DNA from: a virus
IMG/VR virus record: IMGVR_UViG_3300037488_001971
Location: 1 to 23,009 of that record
Direction: 5' to 3' (one strand)
DNA: 23,009 nucleotides
Numbering within the stretch: the first letter of the stretch is position 1; each line of letters opens with the position of its first letter. Of the stretch, positions 4,516 to 20,264 are shown in pieces. The notes beneath the pieces were generated by a model. That model saw nothing but the letters and a program-made list of their open reading frames with translations, was not told the origin of the DNA and did not search any database. Position numbers and translations under genes: made by a program.

Positions 4516-4781
4516 AGTGTTTGTTGTAAAAGTTGCGATTCTGTTCCATACTTCGTTTCAAATGTTTTTTGACCCGCGTGGAGCGCGATTCCAAACCCAC
4601 CATTTTGATGATGCATAGGGCAAAGCGGTATGGCAAGAGACCAATGGCTTTTTTGACCAATGCCAGCGCCATGTCTAATATGGTGTATGTGAGGTGCAGA
4701 ATACCCAAAACCAAGATTGCGACACACAATGCAACCAAGTTGAGACAATTTTTCATAATGCTTCCTTTCATCTTTGATCAT
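4503..4781 (-). CDS. Ref-family (RecA-dependent) nuclease-like protein
   Basis: A 92-residue HNH-related protein with a C17-x2-C20 pair (GCIVCRN), an HIHHIRHG core (31-38), PLCPMHHQ (52-59) and a C-terminal TKYGTESQLL. This order is typical of the recombination-enhancement (Ref) nucleases and their lambdoid DUF968-type relatives. P1 Ref cuts DNA in RecA-bound displacement loops. It overlaps the NinB stop by ATGA, a logical pairing with a recombination mediator. It may help recombination-dependent replication or resolve intermediates. Confidence 0.78.
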   Translation of the reverse strand: MIKDERKHYEKLSQLGCIVCRNLGFGYSAPHIHHIRHGAGIGQKSHWSLAIPLCPMHHQNGGFGIALHAGQKTFETKYGTESQLLQQTLELL

Positions 4782-5131
4782 TGCCAGCTAAATCCGATTT
4801 CGGTAGCCGCCCAAGCCTCAATATTTTCTTGATATTGGGTCATGTCCTCGACCGATAATTTAGTGGTGCTTTTAAGAACTTCAAACACTTCATCATTAAT
4901 AATGCGTTCTGTCCTTAAAAATTTGTATTTCATCATCTTATGTATTTCGTCTTGGCTGTAACCAAGATAATCGCCTATAGCTTTATACATAGCCCATAGT
5001 CGGTCATTTTGTTCGTTTGTTCTCACATCTTTACTTTCCGTAAGAACTATCTTCCATTTTTTTGAGTAATCTAGAGCCTCTAGCTTCGCCACTAGGAAAG
5101 GTAGGTTTTGTTTTGTAATGATCCATTGCAT
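4778..5131 (-). CDS. ninB: NinB/Orf-family recombination mediator
   Basis: A 117-residue protein with the NinB signature: RTNEQNDRLWAMYKAIGDYLG (37-57), EIHKMMKYKFL (62-72), STTKLSVEDMTQYQENIEAWA (88-108) and a terminal GFSWQ. Lambda NinB (Orf) binds single-stranded DNA and replaces RecFOR in loading the recombinase, which fits the recombination genes elsewhere in the window. The ATG at 5131 has AAGAGG nine bases upstream. The gene overlaps the tail of its upstream neighbour by about 100 bases, unusually long, yet both proteins look conserved. Confidence 0.88.
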   Translation of the reverse strand: MQWIITKQNLPFLVAKLEALDYSKKWKIVLTESKDVRTNEQNDRLWAMYKAIGDYLGYSQDEIHKMMKYKFLRTERIINDEVFEVLKSTTKLSVEDMTQYQENIEAWAATEIGFSWQ

Positions 5132-7616: not shown

Positions 7617-7967
7617 TTATCCTTTAAGGTAATTCTTTATGGTTTCTTTCGCTTCGACAAAACCGTAGCATACTTCAGCATCATAACCCATATTTTTAGC
7701 TAACTTTTGAAATTCTAACTGATTTTCCTGCGCTTTTCCACCTTTAGCTTTCATTTCTATAAACAACCCACATTTGGGCGACTTTGGAATCATTAAAAAC
7801 AAATCTGATACACCCGCCATAACACCCTCGCGTTTGAGCTTTATAGCCGTGCCAATGTTCCTTACACCACCATTTGGGATGGCGAAAAGGCAACCCCTAA
7901 TCAAAGGATATTGTAGTCTGAACCATTCTATAAGTGCCACTTGTTCTTTGTGTTCGTCGTTTTTCAT
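7617..7967 (-). CDS. VRR-NUC domain nuclease
   Basis: A 116-residue stand-alone VRR-NUC protein: PNGGVRN (31-37), KLKREGVMAGVSDLFL with catalytic Asp55, then FIEMKAKGGKAQENQ with the ExK pair Glu71/Lys73. The family is a PD-(D/E)XK nuclease; phage members cut branched DNA. As first gene of the leftward operon it faces the rightward operon across 115 bases. No ribosome site is evident before the ATG at 7967, so it may be translated from a near-leaderless message. Confidence 0.9.
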   Translation of the reverse strand: MKNDEHKEQVALIEWFRLQYPLIRGCLFAIPNGGVRNIGTAIKLKREGVMAGVSDLFLMIPKSPKCGLFIEMKAKGGKAQENQLEFQKLAKNMGYDAEVCYGFVEAKETIKNYLKG

Positions 7968-8004
7968 CGCTTTTATAAAATATTTATAAAAAAAGTAAAA
8001 AAAA

Positions 8005-8077
8005 GCTTTTCTTTTCTCAGAAGTTGGAAGATGATTCTTTTTGTAGTAGATTTTATCTTAACAGGAATTGAAAGGAA
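8005..8077 (+). repeat. Promoter/leader repeat, copy 1
   Basis: A block of about 75 bases shared with 9304-9373. Matching parts in order are GCTTT-CTTTT-CT, then TTGGAAGAT at the same 19-base offset, TTTTGTAGTA, and an identical TTAACAGGAATTGAAAGGAA just before the start codon. Differences are substitutions plus a five-base length change between the -10 region and the start. Confidence 0.75.
8024..8052 (+). promoter_or_regulatory. Rightward early promoter, copy 1
   Basis: TTGGAA (8024-8029), a 17-base spacer ending TTTTTGTAG, and TAGATT (8047-8052) form a sigma-70-like pair. The region from GCTTTTCTTTTCT (8005) through TTAACAGGAATTGAAAGGAA (8058-8077) recurs almost entirely before the gene at 9377. 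Conservation of both the boxes and their spacing between the two copies is the main support. Confidence 0.6.
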
Positions 8078-8082
8078 ACGAT

Positions 8083-8250
8083 ATGAGAATTACAGGCGCT
8101 TATTGCATTATCGAAACACTTGCTGAGAAAAAAAACATTAATTTCTCTCAAGCCCTCCAGTATGTTGCAGAAAATTACAAGTCTTGCGACAAATACCAAA
8201 AAATTGCATACGATACTTTAGCTAATCCAGCAGTTCAGGTTCCCGTATGA
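8083..8250 (+). CDS. Small hypothetical protein (55 aa)
   Basis: MRITGAYCIIETLAEKKNIN, then a helical middle (FSQALQYVAENYKSC) and a short tail ending VQVPV. I chose the ATG at 8083, five bases after AAAGGAA/ACG; an in-frame TTG at 8068 lies inside the ribosome site itself. It is the first gene of the rightward operon and its stop overlaps the next start as ATGA. No family is recognised. Early position after a strong leader suggests a host-takeover or regulatory peptide, which is only inference. Confidence 0.72.
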   Translation: MRITGAYCIIETLAEKKNINFSQALQYVAENYKSCDKYQKIAYDTLANPAVQVPV

Positions 8251-8504
8251 AATTACTAACCGCACTATTAATCGCACTGCCAATCGTATCATTCGCGGGT
8301 GAATCACCTAAGCTTCGTTATAATTGGGTCGAAGGTAAATATAATTACGCCCCTAAAGAAGCCAAGCTCAAATACAATTGGACTGCCGATCAGTATGAAT
8401 TTGTAATGCCGAACTCCAAACTTAAACTTAATACGCAAAGCAATAACTACGAGTATGTGCAAACTCAAATTGATCCATATAAATCACAAATAGGGGAAGA
8501 ATAA
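8247..8504 (+). CDS. Exported small protein with three short repeats
   Basis: An 85-residue protein. Residues 1-18 form a signal peptide (MKLLTALLIALPIVSFAG, with likely cleavage after Ala17 or Gly18). The mature part has three tandem repeats of about 19 residues: PKLRYNWVEGKYNYAPKEA, KLKYNWTADQYEFVMPNS and KLKLNTQSNNYEYVQTQ. The shared pattern is KLxYNxxxxxYEY. Similar YN...WEYAP repeat proteins occur in other phages; I know no function. It should act in the periplasm or on the surface. Superinfection exclusion or envelope modulation are possible but unproven. Confidence 0.8.
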   Translation: MKLLTALLIALPIVSFAGESPKLRYNWVEGKYNYAPKEAKLKYNWTADQYEFVMPNSKLKLNTQSNNYEYVQTQIDPYKSQIGEE

Positions 8505-8611
8505 TGAAAAAAGATTTAATTCTTGGATGTATTTTTGCAATTGCTTTTTGGGCTTATGTAGCACTTTGGCTTTATGTGGGCTACCCATATTTAATTAAAT
8601 TATTTGGATAG
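8504..8611 (+). CDS. Tiny membrane protein (35 aa)
   Basis: ATG at 8504 overlaps the previous stop as TAATG and has AGGGGAAG just upstream. The peptide is MKKDLILGCIFAIAFWAYVA then LWLYVGYPYLIKLFG: one membrane helix after a basic start (positive-inside). It ends in TAG within the ribosome site of the next gene. It follows a secreted repeat protein, so the two may act together at the envelope. No family recognised. Confidence 0.72.
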   Translation: MKKDLILGCIFAIAFWAYVALWLYVGYPYLIKLFG

Positions 8612-8619
8612 GATAAAAA

Positions 8620-8949
8620 ATGACACAAGACAATAAATATAACGGCTGGACTAATTATGCTACTTGGCGAGTTGCGTTAGAAATATTTGATCCATTTGAT
8701 ATGTCTGATTATTATCAAACATACATGCTCAAGACCTATGAATTTGGTCAGTTTTTAAAAGAATATGCCGATGACATTGTATTCATGAATATTCCACCAA
8801 ATAATAATAGCCTTGCGATAGATTATGCTGGCGCTTTCCTTCAAGAAGTTAATTGGTATGAAATAGCCGATCATATAATTCAAGATTATGAATATGAGTT
8901 AAAAGCTTCTGATGAAAATACAAGAGAGGATTATGATGAAACTGTATAA
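8620..8949 (+). CDS. DUF7249-like phage protein
   Basis: A 109-residue acidic protein beginning with the conserved YNGWTNYATWRVALEIFD (residues 7-24), a signature of small phage proteins grouped as DUF7249 (from memory). The remainder is helical with Asp/Tyr-rich segments (WYEIADHIIQDYEYEL). Function unknown. AGGA lies six bases before the ATG. The last 14 bases overlap the next gene. Confidence 0.8.
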   Translation: MTQDNKYNGWTNYATWRVALEIFDPFDMSDYYQTYMLKTYEFGQFLKEYADDIVFMNIPPNNNSLAIDYAGAFLQEVNWYEIADHIIQDYEYELKASDENTREDYDETV

Positions 8950-9124
8950 ATTTAAAGTTGTTATTACTTCCCAAAATACTTATGAGCGGGAAGTTATTGC
9001 CAAAAATGAAGATGACGCTATAGATATATTTACGACTTCTATAGATGATAACGACAAAATATCTGAAGAGCAATTTGATGTCAAGGATATAGAAAATGTT
9101 GGCGAAGCTACGGAGGACGACTAA
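8936..9124 (+). CDS. Small acidic hypothetical protein (62 aa)
   Basis: MKLYKFKVVITSQNTYEREV begins a beta-strand/helix protein (IAKNEDDAIDIFTTSI) with a strongly acidic tail ending ATEDD. The pattern looks like a short beta-beta-alpha fold in which EDDAID starts a helix. The ATG at 8936 is five bases after AGAGAGGA and is preferred over 8912 and 8933. The next gene starts at its stop (TAATG). No family recognised. Confidence 0.7.
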   Translation: MKLYKFKVVITSQNTYEREVIAKNEDDAIDIFTTSIDDNDKISEEQFDVKDIENVGEATEDD

Positions 9125-9300
9125 TGTTTATTATAGACTTTGAAACAGAAAAAATTAAAGAGGTAGATAATTGGCAAATATGCGAATTCGTAAATGGTCT
9201 TATTGCAAGCCAAAATACAGACCTATTAAATAAGCGTTATTTGTTTGTCCCAACTGCCGATGCCGCGGAATATATTATTAATAAAGCTATGAAACATTAA
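9124..9300 (+). CDS. Small hypothetical protein (58 aa)
   Basis: An open frame of 58 codons starting ATG at 9124, overlapping the previous stop (TAATG) and preceded by GGAGG about eight bases upstream. It begins MFIIDFETEKIKEVDNWQIC and contains NKRYLFVPTADAAEYIINKA near the end, giving mixed alpha/beta composition. It exactly fills the space before the second promoter copy. No family recognised, but the ribosome site and packing make it a likely gene. Confidence 0.65.
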   Translation: MFIIDFETEKIKEVDNWQICEFVNGLIASQNTDLLNKRYLFVPTADAAEYIINKAMKH

Positions 9301-9303
9301 AAT

Positions 9304-9373
9304 GCTTTCTTTTTCTAAATGTTTGGAAGATAATTAATTTTGTAGTATTTTTTTAACAGGAATTGAAAGGAAT
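9304..9373 (+). repeat. Promoter/leader repeat, copy 2
   Basis: Second copy of the 8005-8077 block. GCTTTCTTTTTCT (9304-9316) sits 19 bases ahead of TTGGAAGAT, followed by TTTTGTAGTA and TTAACAGGAATTGAAAGGAA (9353-9372). The near identity of the translation leader as well as the promoter suggests duplication of a whole control segment. Confidence 0.75.
9323..9351 (+). promoter_or_regulatory. Rightward early promoter, copy 2
   Basis: TTGGAA (9323-9328), a 17-base spacer (ending TTTTGTAG) and TATTTT (9346-9351). The boxes and spacing equal those at 8024-8052. It would start a second rightward transcript that includes the ERF/YqaJ recombination genes, independent of the first small-gene cluster. 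Confidence 0.58.
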
Positions 9374-9376
9374 TTT

Positions 9377-9898
9377 ATGAACATATTTTATTTGCACAAT
9401 AACCCTCGCGACTGCGCTATCATGCACCTTGATAAGCATTGCGTCAAAATGATCTTAGAATATTCCCAGCTTCTCTCTACTGCTCATCGTGTTCTTGACG
9501 GCGACGATTATGCTGACGCGCATGGTTTTTACAAAAAAACTCATATGAATCACCCTTCTGCCGTATGGGTTCGTAAAAGTGCTGACAATTATGCTTGGCT
9601 TGTTCAATTATTATCTTTTTTATGTATAGAATATACTTACCGATACGGCAAAATACATAAAGTTCAGGATACAAGATTAATGCATAAACTTTTTTTAATA
9701 CCTAATAACATTGGCACAGAGCCGTTCACCGAGCCTACTCCTGCTATGCCTGACGACTGCAAAATAATTAATGATTCAATTGCTTCTTATCGTAAATATT
9801 ACCAATTATATAAAGCTCATATTGCTAAATGGACTGATCGTAATATGCCTTATTGGTTTGATAAAAATGCTTTGCAATTCAACAATTTGGGAGTATGA
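9377..9898 (+). CDS. Conserved phage protein with DKHxVKMILE core
   Basis: A 173-residue protein. Its N-terminus (MNIFYLHNNPRDCAIMHLDK followed by HCVKMILEYSQLLSTAHRVLDG) and KTHMNHPSAVWVRKSADNYAWL (54-75) form a pattern I recognise from cyanophage and other marine phage proteins, mostly annotated as hypothetical. Several conserved His, Asp and Cys residues could bind metal. It directly follows the second promoter copy, so it is expressed early and probably strongly. A nucleic-acid enzyme role is possible, but I can point to no established motif. Confidence 0.82.
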   Translation: MNIFYLHNNPRDCAIMHLDKHCVKMILEYSQLLSTAHRVLDGDDYADAHGFYKKTHMNHPSAVWVRKSADNYAWLVQLLSFLCIEYTYRYGKIHKVQDTRLMHKLFLIPNNIGTEPFTEPTPAMPDDCKIINDSIASYRKYYQLYKAHIAKWTDRNMPYWFDKNALQFNNLGV

Positions 9899-9928
9899 TC
9901 GTTGAAAATCAACAACTTAGGAGATATT

Positions 9929-10264
9929 ATGTCTGACCAAGAAAATGTTGCAATAGAAAAGGTTCATATTCAGGCTTTGGTTAATCCTGATACGGACTGG
10001 GCTGAAGATAAACCAACGCTTCAAGAGTTAATCGCAGATCATATTATGTTTCAATCAAAAAAATTTGGCGATTACTACAAGGACGCATTGCTACAAGAAC
10101 AAGTAAAAAATATCATCTACGATTCTGAAGATGATAAGCTTGGACGCATCAGAGATTTATATGATGCGGAAATAGAAGGTCTTGCACGCTTTATAGCGGA
10201 ACACCATAGAGATAATAATTTCGCTAGATGGGCTTACGAGGAAACAATGAAACATATTATTTAA
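9929..10264 (+). CDS. Hypothetical protein (111 aa)
   Basis: An acidic, helical protein starting MSDQENVAIEKVHIQALVNP and ending YEETMKHII. The ATG at 9929 has AGGAG five bases upstream and is preferred over the in-frame TTG at 9902. A small inverted repeat (GTTGA/TCAAC, 9901-9913) lies just before the ribosome site. I do not recognise a family. It precedes the ERF gene and may be co-expressed with recombination functions. Confidence 0.7.
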   Translation: MSDQENVAIEKVHIQALVNPDTDWAEDKPTLQELIADHIMFQSKKFGDYYKDALLQEQVKNIIYDSEDDKLGRIRDLYDAEIEGLARFIAEHHRDNNFARWAYEETMKHII

Positions 10265-10286
10265 TCTTGAAAGGAATTTATAAGAC

Positions 10287-10838
10287 ATGAAAACATCAGA
10301 GAGTATAAAAGAAATAGCAACAGCGTTAGTAAAAGCACAAGACAATATTACATATGCCATTAAAGATTCTACCAACCCTCATTTTAAATCTCGTTATGCA
10401 GATTTGGGTTCGGTGATACACGCTATTAAAGAATCCTTAAACAACTTCGGCATAGCTTTCATTCAAACTCCCACAGAATCACAACCTGGCACTCTAGCAT
10501 TGACTACTCGTTTAATTCACTCCTCAGGTGAATGGATTGAGGATACTGCTATTTGTCCTTTGCAAAAAAATGATCCGCAAGGTTACGGCTCGGCTTTGAC
10601 TTATTTGCGCCGTTATACTTTAGCGTCAATTACAGGTCTTTATCAAGATGATGATGATGGCGAATCTACCCGCATGAATCCTGAAGACTATTTAAAGAAA
10701 ATTCAATCAAGCAAAACGATTGAGGAACTTCAAACTAATTATGCTTCCGTAATTGGTGAAGTTAAAAATAATCAAACAATATCTAAAGCTGTAATTTCAG
10801 AAACCAACAGAATGAAAGCTATTTTAAAAGGGGAATAA
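10287..10838 (+). CDS. erf: ERF-family single-strand annealing protein
   Basis: A 183-residue ERF recombinase. Diagnostic segments are IATALVKAQDNI (10-21), NPHFKSRYADLGSVIHAIK (30-48), the GIAFIQTP strand, QGYGSALTYLRRYTLASITGL (98-118) and DDDDGE (121-126). ERF proteins anneal complementary single strands, working with a 5'-3' exonuclease, here the YqaJ protein two genes on. Together they give RecA-independent recombination for circularisation or concatemer formation. The family's C-terminal zinc or charged tail is short here. Spacing from AAGGA to ATG is long (11 bases). Confidence 0.93.
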   Translation: MKTSESIKEIATALVKAQDNITYAIKDSTNPHFKSRYADLGSVIHAIKESLNNFGIAFIQTPTESQPGTLALTTRLIHSSGEWIEDTAICPLQKNDPQGYGSALTYLRRYTLASITGLYQDDDDGESTRMNPEDYLKKIQSSKTIEELQTNYASVIGEVKNNQTISKAVISETNRMKAILKGE

Positions 10839-12121: not shown

Positions 12122-13093
12122 ATGCCAAGAGCAAATACGCCACACAATCAAATAACTACAGATGAAGAATTTTTAAAACTTTGGAAAGAATTAAAATCAC
12201 CTAAGAAAATGGCATTAGCTATTGGTTGTGACCTTACTGCTGTTTATAGACGCAGACGCAGTTTAGAGGCTCGTTACGGACTTGATCTAGTTACTAATAG
12301 CGAAACGCCAATGATAGAAAGACATTCTGCTCGTATTAATGTTCCTGTCGAAAATGGCGTAGTTTTAGTATTTTCTGATGCACACTTTTGGAATGACAAT
12401 CCTTCCACAGCTTATAGAGCTTTAATTAAATATATTGAAGAATTAAAGCCAAAACTTGTGGTATGTAATGGCGATGCTTTTGATGGGGCTAATGTATCTC
12501 GTCATGGTCGTATTGGTTTCCTTGAAAATAGACCTGATGTTCATCAAGAATTAGAAGCTTGTAAAACAATGCTTGGCGGCATCGAGGATGTTTGCAAAAA
12601 GATTAAACCTAGCCCTATATTAACTTGGACTTTAGGTAATCACGATAGCCGTTTTGAAACTCTATTGGCGGCAGTAGCCCCACAATACGAAAAAATACAT
12701 GGTTTTCATTTAAAAGATCATTTCCCTGCTTGGAAACCTTGCTGGGCTACATGGGTTAATGATGTATGTATCAAACATAGATGGAAAGGTGGCGTTCATG
12801 CCACACATAACAACACTATGGGCGCTGGCACAAGCATGGTTACAGGACATTTACATTCTCTTAAGGTAGCCGCTTATACAGATTACACAGGAACTCGTTA
12901 TGGTGTTGATACAGGAACTCTTGCTGAAATTGACGGCGAACAATTTGTTCACTATACTGAAGATAATCCTAAAAATTGGCGCAGTGGTTTTGCTGTGCTT
13001 ACTTTTTGGAAAGGGAAGCTTCTACCACCGGAATTAGTAGAAGTTATTGGTGATGGTATCGTTGCGTTTAGGGGGAAAGCATATGAAGTATAG
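12122..13093 (+). CDS. Calcineurin-like metallophosphoesterase with N-terminal helix-turn-helix
   Basis: A 323-residue protein. Residues about 12-55 look like a helix-turn-helix (TTDEEFLKLWKELKSPKKMA, IGCDLTAVYRRRRSLEARYG). The rest is a phosphoesterase with its metal ligands in order: SDAHFW (D86, H88), NGDAFDG (D118), LGNHDSRF (N173, H174), KHRW (H219) and TGHLHS (H243, H245). Phage enzymes of this type may process DNA ends, nucleotides or RNA; the substrate is not readable. It follows the recombination cluster through a partial terminator. The HTH-like part could bind DNA or a protein partner. Confidence 0.87.
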   Translation: MPRANTPHNQITTDEEFLKLWKELKSPKKMALAIGCDLTAVYRRRRSLEARYGLDLVTNSETPMIERHSARINVPVENGVVLVFSDAHFWNDNPSTAYRALIKYIEELKPKLVVCNGDAFDGANVSRHGRIGFLENRPDVHQELEACKTMLGGIEDVCKKIKPSPILTWTLGNHDSRFETLLAAVAPQYEKIHGFHLKDHFPAWKPCWATWVNDVCIKHRWKGGVHATHNNTMGAGTSMVTGHLHSLKVAAYTDYTGTRYGVDTGTLAEIDGEQFVHYTEDNPKNWRSGFAVLTFWKGKLLPPELVEVIGDGIVAFRGKAYEV

Positions 13094-13281: not shown

Positions 13282-13308
13282 AAAGGGGGAATTATCCCCC
13301 TTTAATTT
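13282..13308. terminator. Bidirectional rho-independent terminator between converging operons
   Basis: AAAGGGGGA (13282-13290) pairs perfectly with TCCCCCTTT (13295-13303) around an ATTA loop. It is followed by T-rich sequence on the plus strand and by TTTTTT on the minus strand. It ends the rightward operon (stop at 13280) and the leftward fibre/pqqA operon (pqqA stop at 13311). Confidence 0.9.
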
Positions 13309-13310
13309 TA

Positions 13311-13382
13311 TTACTTATTCATTACATACATAGTTACTTCAAAGCCAAAACGCATTTCTGTAGCTGATGGTGTAGTCCACAT
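13311..13382 (-). CDS. pqqA: PqqA, precursor peptide of pyrroloquinoline quinone (PQQ)
   Basis: A 23-codon gene whose peptide starts MWTTPSATE and ends MRFGFEVTMYVMNK. PqqA peptides of Klebsiella and Pseudomonas type are also 23 residues. They start MW, have P5 and carry the invariant E-V-T-x-Y with Glu15 and Tyr19. Both crosslinking residues are present here at exactly these positions. In the host pathway PqqD binds the peptide, PqqE joins Glu15 to Tyr19, and further steps give PQQ, the cofactor of periplasmic methanol and glucose dehydrogenases. AAGGAG stands six bases before the ATG, and the bidirectional terminator follows the stop. No pqqB-E genes are present, so the product must depend on host enzymes. 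This makes it a candidate auxiliary metabolic gene and points to a methylotroph host. Confidence 0.92.
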   Translation of the reverse strand: MWTTPSATEMRFGFEVTMYVMNK

Positions 13383-13457
13383 AATAAACTCCTTAATTAA
13401 AAAAATACTGCCATTTAATTATGAGCTACATTGTGGCTCAAAACATCAAGAAAATCA
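13383..13457 (-). promoter_or_regulatory. Leader of pqqA with hairpin, possible promoter
   Basis: The 75 bases before pqqA are non-coding. They contain an imperfect hairpin (GAGC 13423-13426 with GCTC 13436-13439, plus inner ACA/TGT pairing). On the minus strand they also contain AGTATTTTTTTAA, which is identical to 13 bases around the -10 of the rightward promoter at 9344-9356. A separate promoter for pqqA is therefore possible, but no convincing -35 is visible. Confidence 0.35.
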
Positions 13458-13622
13458 TTATTTAATTTTAGAACGCGCCCACTCATAAATTCTAATGCAA
13501 TACCAAACTATTGATAATAAAGCCGCTATTGCTGGTAAAAATTTCATTACTGCACCAAGAGCCGTAACTCCCGAAACTGTATCTAATAAATGCTTTGTAT
13601 GTTCTTCCATATTCATTTTCAT
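13458..13622 (-). CDS. Small single-pass membrane protein (54 aa), holin-like
   Basis: MKMNMEEHTKHLLDTVSGVT, then ALGAVMKFLPAIAALLSIVWYCIRIYEWARSKIK. The TKHLLDxVS...LPxIAALxxIxWxxIRIYE pattern is one I know from small phage membrane proteins annotated as holins or putative internal membrane proteins. It has one hydrophobic helix and a basic end. The start is not firmly set: ATG at 13622, 13616 or 13610 are all in frame and only a weak GAAAG precedes the first. Since a 3TM holin exists elsewhere, this could be a second holin or antiholin. Confidence 0.65.
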   Translation of the reverse strand: MKMNMEEHTKHLLDTVSGVTALGAVMKFLPAIAALLSIVWYCIRIYEWARSKIK

Positions 13623-15852: not shown

Positions 15853-18549
15853 TTAAACTGGATAAATTGCTAATACCCTATCGTTTAATGCTAATGCAGT
15901 TGTTGTAAATGTAGTGCCGCCCGATACTGTGCAATCAACACCATTAACAAGTATTGAACCATTAACTGAAACTTGAATTTTGTTTGCAGTATAAGTTTGT
16001 GTTGTTGTAAATGAAGTTTGTGCCGCAGTTGCAGTATAAGCATCATAAACCATAGTGTTAGTGCCATTAATTCCGCTATAGCCTGAAATGCCGCTATACC
16101 CTGATATACCTGATGCACCTGAAAATCCACTTATGCCTGATCCACTATAACCTGATATGCCTGAATATCCACTAATGCCTGACGCGCCACTATAACCTGA
16201 AATGCCTGAATCACCGCTAAATCCTGATATACCACTATACCCACTAATGCCGCTAAAACCACTATAGCCTGAAATACCACTAAATCCTGACACACCAATA
16301 TTAATACCTGTATAAGCAACAGATTGAACAACATCGGTTACTGTGCAAGGGCTAATAGTAAATGTAGTGCCATTTGTTGCAGTAACATCAGCATCGGCTA
16401 ATTTAGCACCATTTCTAAATACATCTAAATATCCAACAGTATATGCAACAGTAAATACAGTTTGACTAGCGGATGGAGTAAAATCAGTTACAACTCTTGA
16501 GGTGCTAGTTGCGTTAATGCCACTATAACCTGAATATCCGCTAATACCACTTCCTGAATATCCTGAAATGCCGCTATATCCGCTTATGCCTGACGCACCG
16601 CTATACCCACTAATTCCTGAATCACCACTAAAGCCCGAAATTCCTGACGCTCCGCTAAAGCCTGATATGCCTGAATAACCGCTTATGCCACTATCGCCGC
16701 TATATCCTGATATTCCTGAATAACCACTAAAGCCACTAACGCCTGATCCACTATATCCACTAATTCCTGAATCACCGCTATACCCACTAATTCCTGAAAA
16801 GCCTGATATGCCACTAAAACCACTATAGCCACTAATACCACTATCACCGCTAAAACCTGAAATACCACTATAACCGCTATAGCCTGATATGCCACTAAAA
16901 CCGCTATAGCCTGATATGCCGCTATAACCACTATAGCCCGATACACCATTAACAAGGGCAAATATTAAATTATGATTATTTGCAAAGTTTGTAGTTCCTG
17001 TGCCTGCACTTGAAACTAAAGCAACAGGATAAGCCCAATAAGAAGTTGCACCGCCAGGATTGTAATTAACAGGCGTTCCATTAATAACCCATGTTTGAGA
17101 ATTAACACTTGAGTTTGCATCTTGAATAACAAATTCTTCCGTTTGTTGTAATAAAGATAAATAAATATCTATATCAACATTGTTTTCATTAAGATGAGAA
17201 ACATTAACTATAGTTGAACTTATTTGAGTTGCATTATCCCAAGTAATAGCACCATCGCCTGGATAACCTGATGTTGATGTTGTATTTGCATGATACTCAA
17301 AAAAGCTGGATGATGATCCAGGAATGCCACTAAAGCCACTATAACCACTATAGCCTGAAATACCTGAATCGCCGCTATAACCACTTATGCCGCTATAACC
17401 GCTATAACCACTAATACCGCTATCACCTGAATATCCGCTAATACCGCTATATCCTGAATCACCTGACATACCGCTATAGCCACTATAGCCACTAATGCCG
17501 CTATCACCACTCCAACCTGAAATGCCTGACCAACCTGATTCGCCTGACCAACCACTATAACCACTTATACCTGACCAACCTGAATCACCGCTATAGCCAC
17601 TATAACCGCTTATACCTGATTCGCCTGACCATCCTGATATACCGCTATCACCTGAATATCCGCTAATACCGCTATCGCCGCTAAAACCACTAATTCCGCT
17701 ATCACCACTAAATCCGCTAATGCCACTATCACCTGAATAGCCGCTTTCACCACTATATCCGCTTTCACCACTATAACCACTATATCCACTTGTGCCTTCG
17801 CCGCTATAACCGCTATATCCTGATTCACCTGACCAGCCGCTTAAACCACTATCGCCACTAAAGCCTGATATACCTGAATCGCCACTATAACCTGATTCAC
17901 CGCTATAACCTGAAATGCCTGACGCACCACTATCACCGCTAAAGCCACTTATACCTGAATCGCCACTATAGCCGCTAAAGCCTGAAATACCACTAGCGCC
18001 AGGTGGCCCTACAATTTGACCTACATTAACCCAAGCTGATCCATCCCATACATATAAATCACCATTAGAATCAACAATGTATGCGTCATTTATGTTTGCG
18101 CTTGGCGGTAAAGCCGCAGGATTAGCAACACTTCCAATAATATTAATTGATGTGCCTTGTTGTCCGCTATAGCCTGAAAAACCGCTATAACCTGAAATGC
18201 CTGAATCACCACTATAGCCACTATCACCGCTAAATCCTGAAATGCCTGAATCACCGCTAAATCCTGATATACCACTATCGCCACTATATCCACTAATTCC
18301 TGAATCGCCACTATAGCCGCTTATGCCGCTATCACCTGAATACCCACTATCGCCACTAAATCCACTAATGCCGCTATTTCCACTAAAACCTGAATAGCCG
18401 CTATATCCTGAAATTCCACTAAAGCCACTTGCGCCTGCTCCACTAAATCCTGAATAACCTGATAGACCGCTATAACCTGATTGCCCAGCAGTTAAAAGTT
18501 CAACTTTTAAATTATTTGAATCAACAACTTCTATTTGATAATTAGCCAT
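15853..18549 (-). CDS. Collagen-like (G-X-S repeat) tail-fibre protein
   Basis: An 898-residue fibre built of four collagen-like blocks of Gly-X-Ser triplets (residues about 24-131, 182-411, 536-677 and 752-828). X is mostly Tyr, Ile, Phe, Asp, Glu, Trp or Ala. Globular modules separate them: 132-181 (DLYVWDGSAWVNVG), 412-535, 679-751 (QTVFTVAYTVGYLDVFRNGA) and a C-terminal 829-898. The third and fourth modules resemble each other and a segment of the 21329 gene product. Proline is nearly absent from the repeats, and three GS 'short triplets' shift the phase (near 601, 665 and 802). Such fibres form trimeric stalks carrying receptor-binding heads. Repeat codons are varied synonymously (Ser TCA, AGT, AGC). 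Confidence 0.85.
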   Translation of the reverse strand: MANYQIEVVDSNNLKVELLTAGQSGYSGLSGYSGFSGAGASGFSGISGYSGYSGFSGNSGISGFSGDSGYSGDSGISGYSGDSGISGYSGDSGISGFSGDSGISGFSGDSGYSGDSGISGYSGFSGYSGQQGTSINIIGSVANPAALPPSANINDAYIVDSNGDLYVWDGSAWVNVGQIVGPPGASGISGFSGYSGDSGISGFSGDSGASGISGYSGESGYSGDSGISGFSGDSGLSGWSGESGYSGYSGEGTSGYSGYSGESGYSGESGYSGDSGISGFSGDSGISGFSGDSGISGYSGDSGISGWSGESGISGYSGYSGDSGWSGISGYSGWSGESGWSGISGWSGDSGISGYSGYSGMSGDSGYSGISGYSGDSGISGYSGYSGISGYSGDSGISGYSGYSGFSGIPGSSSSFFEYHANTTSTSGYPGDGAITWDNATQISSTIVNVSHLNENNVDIDIYLSLLQQTEEFVIQDANSSVNSQTWVINGTPVNYNPGGATSYWAYPVALVSSAGTGTTNFANNHNLIFALVNGVSGYSGYSGISGYSGFSGISGYSGYSGISGFSGDSGISGYSGFSGISGFSGISGYSGDSGISGYSGSGVSGFSGYSGISGYSGDSGISGYSGISGFSGASGISGFSGDSGISGYSGASGISGYSGISGYSGSGISGYSGYSGINATSTSRVVTDFTPSASQTVFTVAYTVGYLDVFRNGAKLADADVTATNGTTFTISPCTVTDVVQSVAYTGINIGVSGFSGISGYSGFSGISGYSGISGFSGDSGISGYSGASGISGYSGISGYSGSGISGFSGASGISGYSGISGYSGINGTNTMVYDAYTATAAQTSFTTTQTYTANKIQVSVNGSILVNGVDCTVSGGTTFTTTALALNDRVLAIYPV

Positions 18550-19115: not shown

Positions 19116-20264
19116 TTATTTAAAATATGGGCCTACTAACCATGTAACAACTGTAAATCTTTTTCCTTTTGTTACAGGTTCTACGCCATGCACCATAAAA
19201 GAAGGAAATACAATAATATCGCCTTTTTCTTGTGGCGGATATATCTTTTCATGGCTATTCATAATATAAAACTTTCCGCCTTCAAAGTCGTCATTAAGAA
19301 TTGCTAAACAAGTTAATTTTCTTGTTTCATTTCCTAATTGATGAAAGGTATCAACATGAGCTTCATATTTACCATCAACTTCATACATCAAAAATTCTGT
19401 TTGATTTGAATGAGTAATATTGTATTGCCATTTTTCATGGTTAATATTTAAACCGCATGAAGTAAGTGTTGCGCCTATACCTTGATTTTGTGGAAGCATT
19501 ACTCTTAATACATTTCTAATATTAAGATTTATATTAGCAACAGGATCGCGACCTTCACCAATAAATGGTTGTTCTTTTTGTGTTTCATCTTTTGAATACT
19601 CTTTAATTAAGTTATCACAAAAGTTATTAGAAACGCCATTTTTAACTACATAAGCTACATCAAATTGATTGTTTTCAATTGTATTTTTTGTTTTACTAAT
19701 TCCTAATGATTCCCGTTTATCATATTTCCATTCAGCATGAGGGCCATTAGCATCAACATAATGCAAGAATACTTGGGCTTGCCATTGTCCTTCAACATAA
19801 GGTTCGCGCCAATGCCATTTATCGCAACCACGATACATAACGGCATCACCAATAGCCATATCAATTTTTGAGCTATTAGACTTATCTTCATGGTCGCCCA
19901 TATAGATTGACCAAACATTGCCTTCAAATCCTAATGTAATTGTGGCAGATATTTCGCAAGCAGGTCTATCTCGATGATTTTTTAATTCCTCGCCTTGTTG
20001 ATTATAAAGGCGAGCGTAAGAATAAGTGGGGTAAAGTTTAAGGCCTGATGCTTGTTCAAAATAAGGTAAACAAGTTTCTAACAGTTTGTCAAAAGCTAAT
20101 GCGCCATGCACCGCTTGAGATAATGGACATTGAGAATCATTAACTGTTTTTTGTTCTTCAACTAATCTTTTTAATTCATTAGTTAATTCTTGGCAAGTAT
20201 GTTCAAGTAAGAATGATTTTAAATGAACATATTTCTTATCTTGAAACTCTTGTATTGTATTCAT
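19116..20264 (-). CDS. Tandem 2-oxoglutarate/Fe(II) oxygenase (prolyl-4-hydroxylase-like)
   Basis: A 382-residue protein with two oxygenase domains. The first (about 1-175) has H97-x-D99 (NHRDRP) and His151, but no clear arginine finger, so it may be partly degenerate. The second (about 205-382) is a full prolyl-4-hydroxylase-type core: H303-V-D305, the FEGGKFYI strand (327-334), KGDIIVFPSFMVHGV with His359, and Arg369. The second domain should be active; the first could be structural. Lying between fibre genes and transcribed with them, it may hydroxylate a virion protein or a sugar donor. AAGGA precedes the ATG. It is unrelated in layout to the TET/JBP-like enzyme at 2350. Confidence 0.85.
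   Translation of the reverse strand: MNTIQEFQDKKYVHLKSFLLEHTCQELTNELKRLVEEQKTVNDSQCPLSQAVHGALAFDKLLETCLPYFEQASGLKLYPTYSYARLYNQQGEELKNHRDRPACEISATITLGFEGNVWSIYMGDHEDKSNSSKIDMAIGDAVMYRGCDKWHWREPYVEGQWQAQVFLHYVDANGPHAEWKYDKRESLGISKTKNTIENNQFDVAYVVKNGVSNNFCDNLIKEYSKDETQKEQPFIGEGRDPVANINLNIRNVLRVMLPQNQGIGATLTSCGLNINHEKWQYNITHSNQTEFLMYEVDGKYEAHVDTFHQLGNETRKLTCLAILNDDFEGGKFYIMNSHEKIYPPQEKGDIIVFPSFMVHGVEPVTKGKRFTVVTWLVGPYFK

Follow-up and report, generated by a model that had tools for sequence, protein, structure and literature searches.

A stand-alone pqqA gene in phages of methylotrophic bacteria, with a promoter-like element and a candidate leader RNA

Background

Why would a phage carry a gene for PqqA, the precursor peptide of the cofactor PQQ, and no other gene of the pathway? 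The question is raised by a short frame in a 23,009-nucleotide stretch of viral DNA (hereafter, the window). PQQ synthesis uses one PqqA per PQQ molecule, and in known PqqA the residues E15 and Y19 are cross-linked by PqqE. A location of pqqA near a pqqBCDE operon is common and not obligatory. Such proximity does not define PqqA, because Methylophilaceae have several pqqA genes but only one set of the remaining pqq genes (PMC4109929).

A viral PqqA was earlier named in the Lake Baikal virus population VP_266 (PMC7678222), which resembles the window in its viral PqqA, its predicted Methylophilaceae host and the benefit proposed, but which is T4-like and encodes its own methanol dehydrogenase, whereas the window has a lone pqqA in a P19250A-type phage. 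In the accessible part of a study of reservoir sediment (PMC13188868), pqqA is listed with pqqD and pqqE among virus-encoded genes, where it is classed with the phosphate-solubilising genes of other viruses and no link to methylotrophs was found. The open-access papers on Melnitz, MEP301, MEP401/402 and Venkman make no mention of a phage pqqA, and what PMC11118758 discusses is a PqqA family that neighbours host defence systems, not a phage pqqA. The PqqA family and its occurrence in viruses are known already; the guild-wide distribution, the stand-alone cassette, the dedicated promoter-like element and the leader RNA described here appear to be unreported in the searchable literature.

Identity of the pqqA frame in the window

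The frame and the signals that flank it directly are as follows:

13311..13382, minus strand: pqqA, encoding MWTTPSATEMRFGFEVTMYVMNK (23 aa), then TAA
13389..13394 (read 13394-13389), minus strand: Shine-Dalgarno site AAGGAG, 6 nt before the pqqA ATG
13282..13303, both strands: terminator-like inverted repeat AAAGGGGGAATTATCCCCCTTT, 9 pairs, with a T-rich tail on each strand

The peptide scored 41.3 bits against the Pfam PqqA model PF08042 (cut-off 21.1; E 1.4e-10), which was also found in a six-frame search of the window at 39.1 bits, and 38.5 bits against the NCBIfam PqqA equivalog model TIGR02107 (cut-off 20). Since the scores exceed the cut-offs of both curated models, the frame is not a chance one, and the first-pass annotation, which had called these 23 codons PqqA, was borne out. 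Its coordinates were also correct; the strand, which it had left out, is minus, with the start codon ATG at 13382-13380 and no open frame on the plus strand of 13311-13382.

MWTTPSATEMRFGFEVTMYVMNK is like known PqqA (PF08042, TIGR02107) in its length of 23 residues, its MW start, its RFGFEVTMY core and its Glu15 and Tyr19, and the E-x-x-x-Y pair of PqqA, which gives rise to PQQ, is present at E15 and Y19. The earlier description thus stood for the 23 codons, the N-terminal MW and the two residues, which the translation places in E15-V-T-M-Y19, but not for a C-terminal EVTxY, as the motif lies near the C-terminus and is followed by VMNK. No solved structure matched the peptide by sequence.

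Unlike known PqqA, the peptide is phage-encoded and is found without any other pqq gene. As had been claimed, tblastn queries of PqqB, C, D and E gave no match across the 23-kb window, and no PqqE was detected above cut-off in 49 pqqA-carrying records. The AAGGAG site reported before the frame was recovered, and the bidirectional terminator said to lie right after it corresponds to the inverted repeat at 13282-13303, which is terminator-like on both strands and common to pqqA and the converging plus-strand genes.

Phage context of the window

Two neighbouring genes border the pqqA region:

12122..13093, plus strand: metallophosphoesterase (PF00149, phrog_221), converging on pqqA
13458..13622, minus strand: 54-aa ORF, directly upstream of pqqA

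The source record is a virus contig, and the genes around pqqA encode ERF and YqaJ recombinases, the metallophosphoesterase, a collagen-like tail fibre and a phage lysozyme/endolysin. The nearest cultured phage was P19250A, which matched 48% of a 7.8-kb query at 79% identity; it has an isolate genome of ~39 kb, infects a freshwater methylotroph of the Methylophilaceae, and encodes a PqqA that equals the window peptide with one change. This similarity places the window in the P19250A lineage. The phage genes and the match to a cultured phage support the earlier view that the gene is phage-borne, and the suggested link to PQQ-dependent methylotrophs is in keeping with the hosts that the relatives infect.

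The collagen-like tail-fibre gene (15853-18549) encodes 898 aa with GYSG/GFSG/GISG repeats. A 382-aa protein encoded at 19116-20264, adjoining the tail genes, matched phage 2OG-Fe(II) oxygenase families in its second half and another family in its first half.

Distribution among phages

Searching 50,697 phage records by tblastn with PqqA gave 12 matching records, of which the genuine phage matches were nine Methylophilales isolates (P19250A, Venkman, MEP301, MEP401, MEP402 and four Melnitz variants) and one uncultured Manatee Spring phage with a terminase closest to that of Venkman; the isolate tally takes in no MEP431-434, HIM624-A or Venkman EXVC038S, so that its denominator is incomplete. 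Two weak matches to Acinetobacter phage were rejected as bacterial DNA, the record that was opened holding a bacterial pqqABCDE region. Both records, CAKLQF020000010.1 and CAKLQH020000055.1, bear the name Acinetobacter phage MD-2021a and match pqq DNA of bacteria; the former carries chromosomal pqqABCDE alongside polyphosphate kinase and further genes of the host.

Among the five isolate lineages with pqqA, terminases are essentially unrelated, and at the sensitivity of this tblastn search no PqqA match was found in the nearest relatives by terminase that infect other hosts (pelagiphages, Vibrio phage ICP2 and roseophages); pqqA tracks the host rather than the phage family. P19250A, Venkman, MEP301, MEP401/402 and Melnitz, all of them OM43 phages except P19250A, share with the window the same unannotated pqqA, but its position and neighbouring genes vary between these lineages. 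A pattern scan found pqqA in at least 120 IMG/VR contigs, with a PqqA frame in each of 120. The search of viral contigs that the first-pass annotation had recommended recovered the gene in phages of one host group, whether related or not.

Absence of pqqA from current annotation

In five isolate records there was no feature under the pqqA match. In Melnitz (MZ577097.1:76100-76195) an opposite-strand "hypothetical protein" just before a tRNA-Leu gene hides pqqA, and in MW202481 an unnamed "hypothetical protein" overlies the match, likewise on the opposite strand. None of the phage records opened had a PqqA annotation at the match, and PHROGs v4 contained no family matching the PqqA peptide. The expectation that standard annotation would miss the gene was therefore correct, and its absence from phage annotation and PHROGs is explained by a size below gene-calling limits. 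The same oversight may affect further auxiliary genes that encode only a peptide.

Selection on the peptide and optional presence of the gene

Among 107 distinct sequences, pN/pS was 0.29 for viral PqqA and ~1.6 in shifted frames. Diversity was 0.38 at third codon positions compared with 0.17 and 0.13 at first and second positions, and both measures were computed on the codons left free by the search pattern. The peptide is clearly under purifying selection. A strict Shine-Dalgarno site preceded 115 of 120 viral pqqA genes, as against 4.4% of random ATGs on the same contigs. The tail of phage PqqA has mostly Met or Cys at position 21, with NK after it.

In three small-phage groups defined by terminase, about half of the long contigs carried pqqA, and a smaller share did so in the MEP401 terminase group; these terminase-defined sets include many fragment contigs. 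Three close relatives (G022, G026 and G030) have the neighbouring genes and junctions intact without pqqA, which shows pqqA to be an optional, dispensable gene. In one phage group (L601, L602, L619, L627, L660, L666, L668, L672 and L683) pqqA ends as MWTTPSATEMRFGLI*, without Glu15 and Tyr19, while the leader hairpin described below, the ribosome site and the first 13 pqqA codons are retained; MWTTPSATEMRFGLI would represent a copy either decayed or repurposed. Frame decay in relatives had been named beforehand as an observation that would count against the gene, and it was seen only in part, in that one small group is truncated and some relatives lack the gene. Truncated and absent copies are what an accessory gene would be expected to show.

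Promoter-like element and cassette layout

A further feature was located upstream of the ribosome site:

13418..13458, minus strand: bipartite promoter-like element ATGATTTT-N27-CATAAT, with an upstream box at 13458-13451 and a -10-like hexamer at 13423-13418

This element, which overlaps the stop codon of the upstream 54-aa ORF, corresponds to the consensus ATGRTTTT-N27-YATAAT, with a spacing of 35 +/- 1 nt, found upstream of viral pqqA. In 1.3 Mb of these phages, 28 of the 29 exact copies of the motif lay within 120 nt of a pqqA start; the 29th was also upstream of pqqA, farther off because the leader RNA lies in between, and no exact copy was found away from pqqA. At a 1% false-positive level, a trained matrix detected the element in 51 of the 88 distinct regions upstream of pqqA, a fraction that is somewhat optimistic since the matrix was trained on these same sequences; the window element reached a score of 28.1, where the 99% null threshold was 12.6.

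In Venkman and MEP301, pqqA is oriented against both neighbours. A terminator-like repeat occurred within 60 nt of pqqA in 37 of 127 copies (background, 0.9%). In its layout, pqqA is a small, self-contained cassette: a promoter-like element and a ribosome site precede the gene, and a terminator frequently follows it. Because unrelated phages have the element in common, we infer that a host factor reads it, and it may accordingly be described as a putative host-type promoter. A GAGC-N9-GCTC hairpin upstream of the window pqqA was considered as an operator and rejected, as it is broken in L021, whose upstream region is related.

Leader RNA in other phages

A hairpin was found in the leader of about one tenth of the first pqqA set. 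It has the form UCA-AR-NNNGA/UCNNN-UGA, lies 32-46 nt before the start codon, and occurs in T4-like, Venkman-like and MEP401-like contigs (for example L061:6017-6060, L028:809-852, L036:633-676 and ~100 further IMG/VR loci); it is absent from the window. To avoid bias, a further scan of all viral contigs used only the conserved bases of the hairpin and required neither PqqA nor pairing. It returned 120 hits, with complementary stems in 104. A PqqA frame followed 32-46 nt downstream in 89 of these 104 paired leaders, and the remaining 15 comprised nine with truncated pqqA, one with a divergent PqqA and five on contigs that stop short of the gene or inside it, with the pqqA start already visible in two of the five. 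None of the 16 unpaired hits was followed by PqqA.

The three free stem pairs matched in all 41 distinct sequences (shuffled mean 7.6, maximum 17), and the stem had 94 double-change cells compared with 30.5 expected. No relevant Rfam 15 family matched the hairpin, which is proposed as a new candidate among cis-regulatory RNAs. Some leaders have a second hairpin that adjoins the ribosome site, and a folding program paired the 5' CUC with this second hairpin. Rfam matches to sraA and RsmZ around the window pqqA were far below gathering scores and were dismissed as chance. Elsewhere on one leader-bearing contig, an Rfam ROSE_3 RNA thermometer (L061:4506-4572; 51.7 bits, gathering score 43) was detected directly before a phage Hsp20 gene (4567-5055).

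Proposed function and alternative explanations

We consider, with a probability of about three in four, that the stand-alone phage pqqA is an auxiliary metabolic gene that provides only the consumable substrate of the pathway, so that extra PqqA would lead to more PQQ for the XoxF methanol dehydrogenase during infection. Transcription of the cassette would fall to the host's machinery, as suggested by the pqqA of several phages facing away from its neighbours and by the element common to unrelated phages. Host PqqD and PqqE would then cross-link Glu15 to Tyr19 of the phage peptide, host PqqB and PqqC would complete PQQ, and the extra PQQ would keep the XoxF-type enzyme active while the phage replicates. 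Carriage by bona fide phages is evident from isolate genomes and from the phage genes of the window, and the pN/pS of 0.29 indicates maintenance by selection. Methylophilaceae have 3-12 pqqA copies, while the rest of the pqq genes are usually single-copy (PMC4109929), so that gaining a further pqqA is how the host itself tunes the pathway. PqqA supply may not be limiting for PQQ synthesis in these hosts, and the increase in PQQ and the support of XoxF during infection are predicted effects.

A 72-kb T4-like contig (G087, IMGVR_UViG_3300025120_009955) encodes pqqA, a full-length XoxF (624 aa, with the WDYD motif; L579:5990-7864), a formate dehydrogenase alpha subunit (946 aa; 7944-10784 of the same locus) and curlin-like repeat proteins. 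The set makes up a phage methylotrophy module and fits the same goal.

It is improbable that the phage peptide acts instead as a decoy that occupies PqqD/PqqE or the PqqA-processing proteases, lowers PQQ or diverts a host signal. The phage-typical tail leaves room for such a special role, as does the group that retains only a truncated N-terminal half; however, loss of the residues that PqqE cross-links would be expected of a decoy, whereas the full-length copies retain Glu15, Tyr19 and an RFGFEVTMY core, as in a competent precursor, and the T4-like phage combines pqqA with its own PQQ-requiring XoxF. Equally unlikely is a host pqqA cassette that was gained by illegitimate recombination and spread among phages without benefit. 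Host genomes offer many pqqA copies (PMC4109929), and the gene is patchy in close relatives, but this explanation is already disfavoured by the purifying selection on the peptide, the near-universal ribosome site, the recurrence in unrelated phages of one host group, and the promoter-like and leader elements in common.

That host DNA was mis-binned as virus, as was the case for the "Acinetobacter phage" record with a weak match, deserves almost no weight for the window, where pqqA lies amid endolysin, tail-fibre, ERF and YqaJ genes and which itself matches cultured P19250A, and this explanation is already refuted by the complete cultured phage genomes that carry pqqA. The auxiliary gene reading is preferred.

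A wider proposal, which we put forward tentatively as possible rather than probable, is that the guild of methylotroph phages shares a stand-alone pqqA cassette under dedicated control, exerted by a pqqA-specific promoter common to unrelated phages and, in many others, by an undescribed leader RNA, possibly a riboswitch or other regulator of PQQ precursor supply and possibly derived from host pqqA.

Conclusion

Cultured phage-host pairs such as MEP301, Venkman and MEP401 make the question directly testable. The leader RNA is a new candidate for a regulatory RNA that is linked to a cofactor pathway. If the proposed function is true, supply of the precursor peptide would be a recurrent control point pushed by methylotroph phages during infection, in hosts that matter to marine and freshwater methanol cycling.
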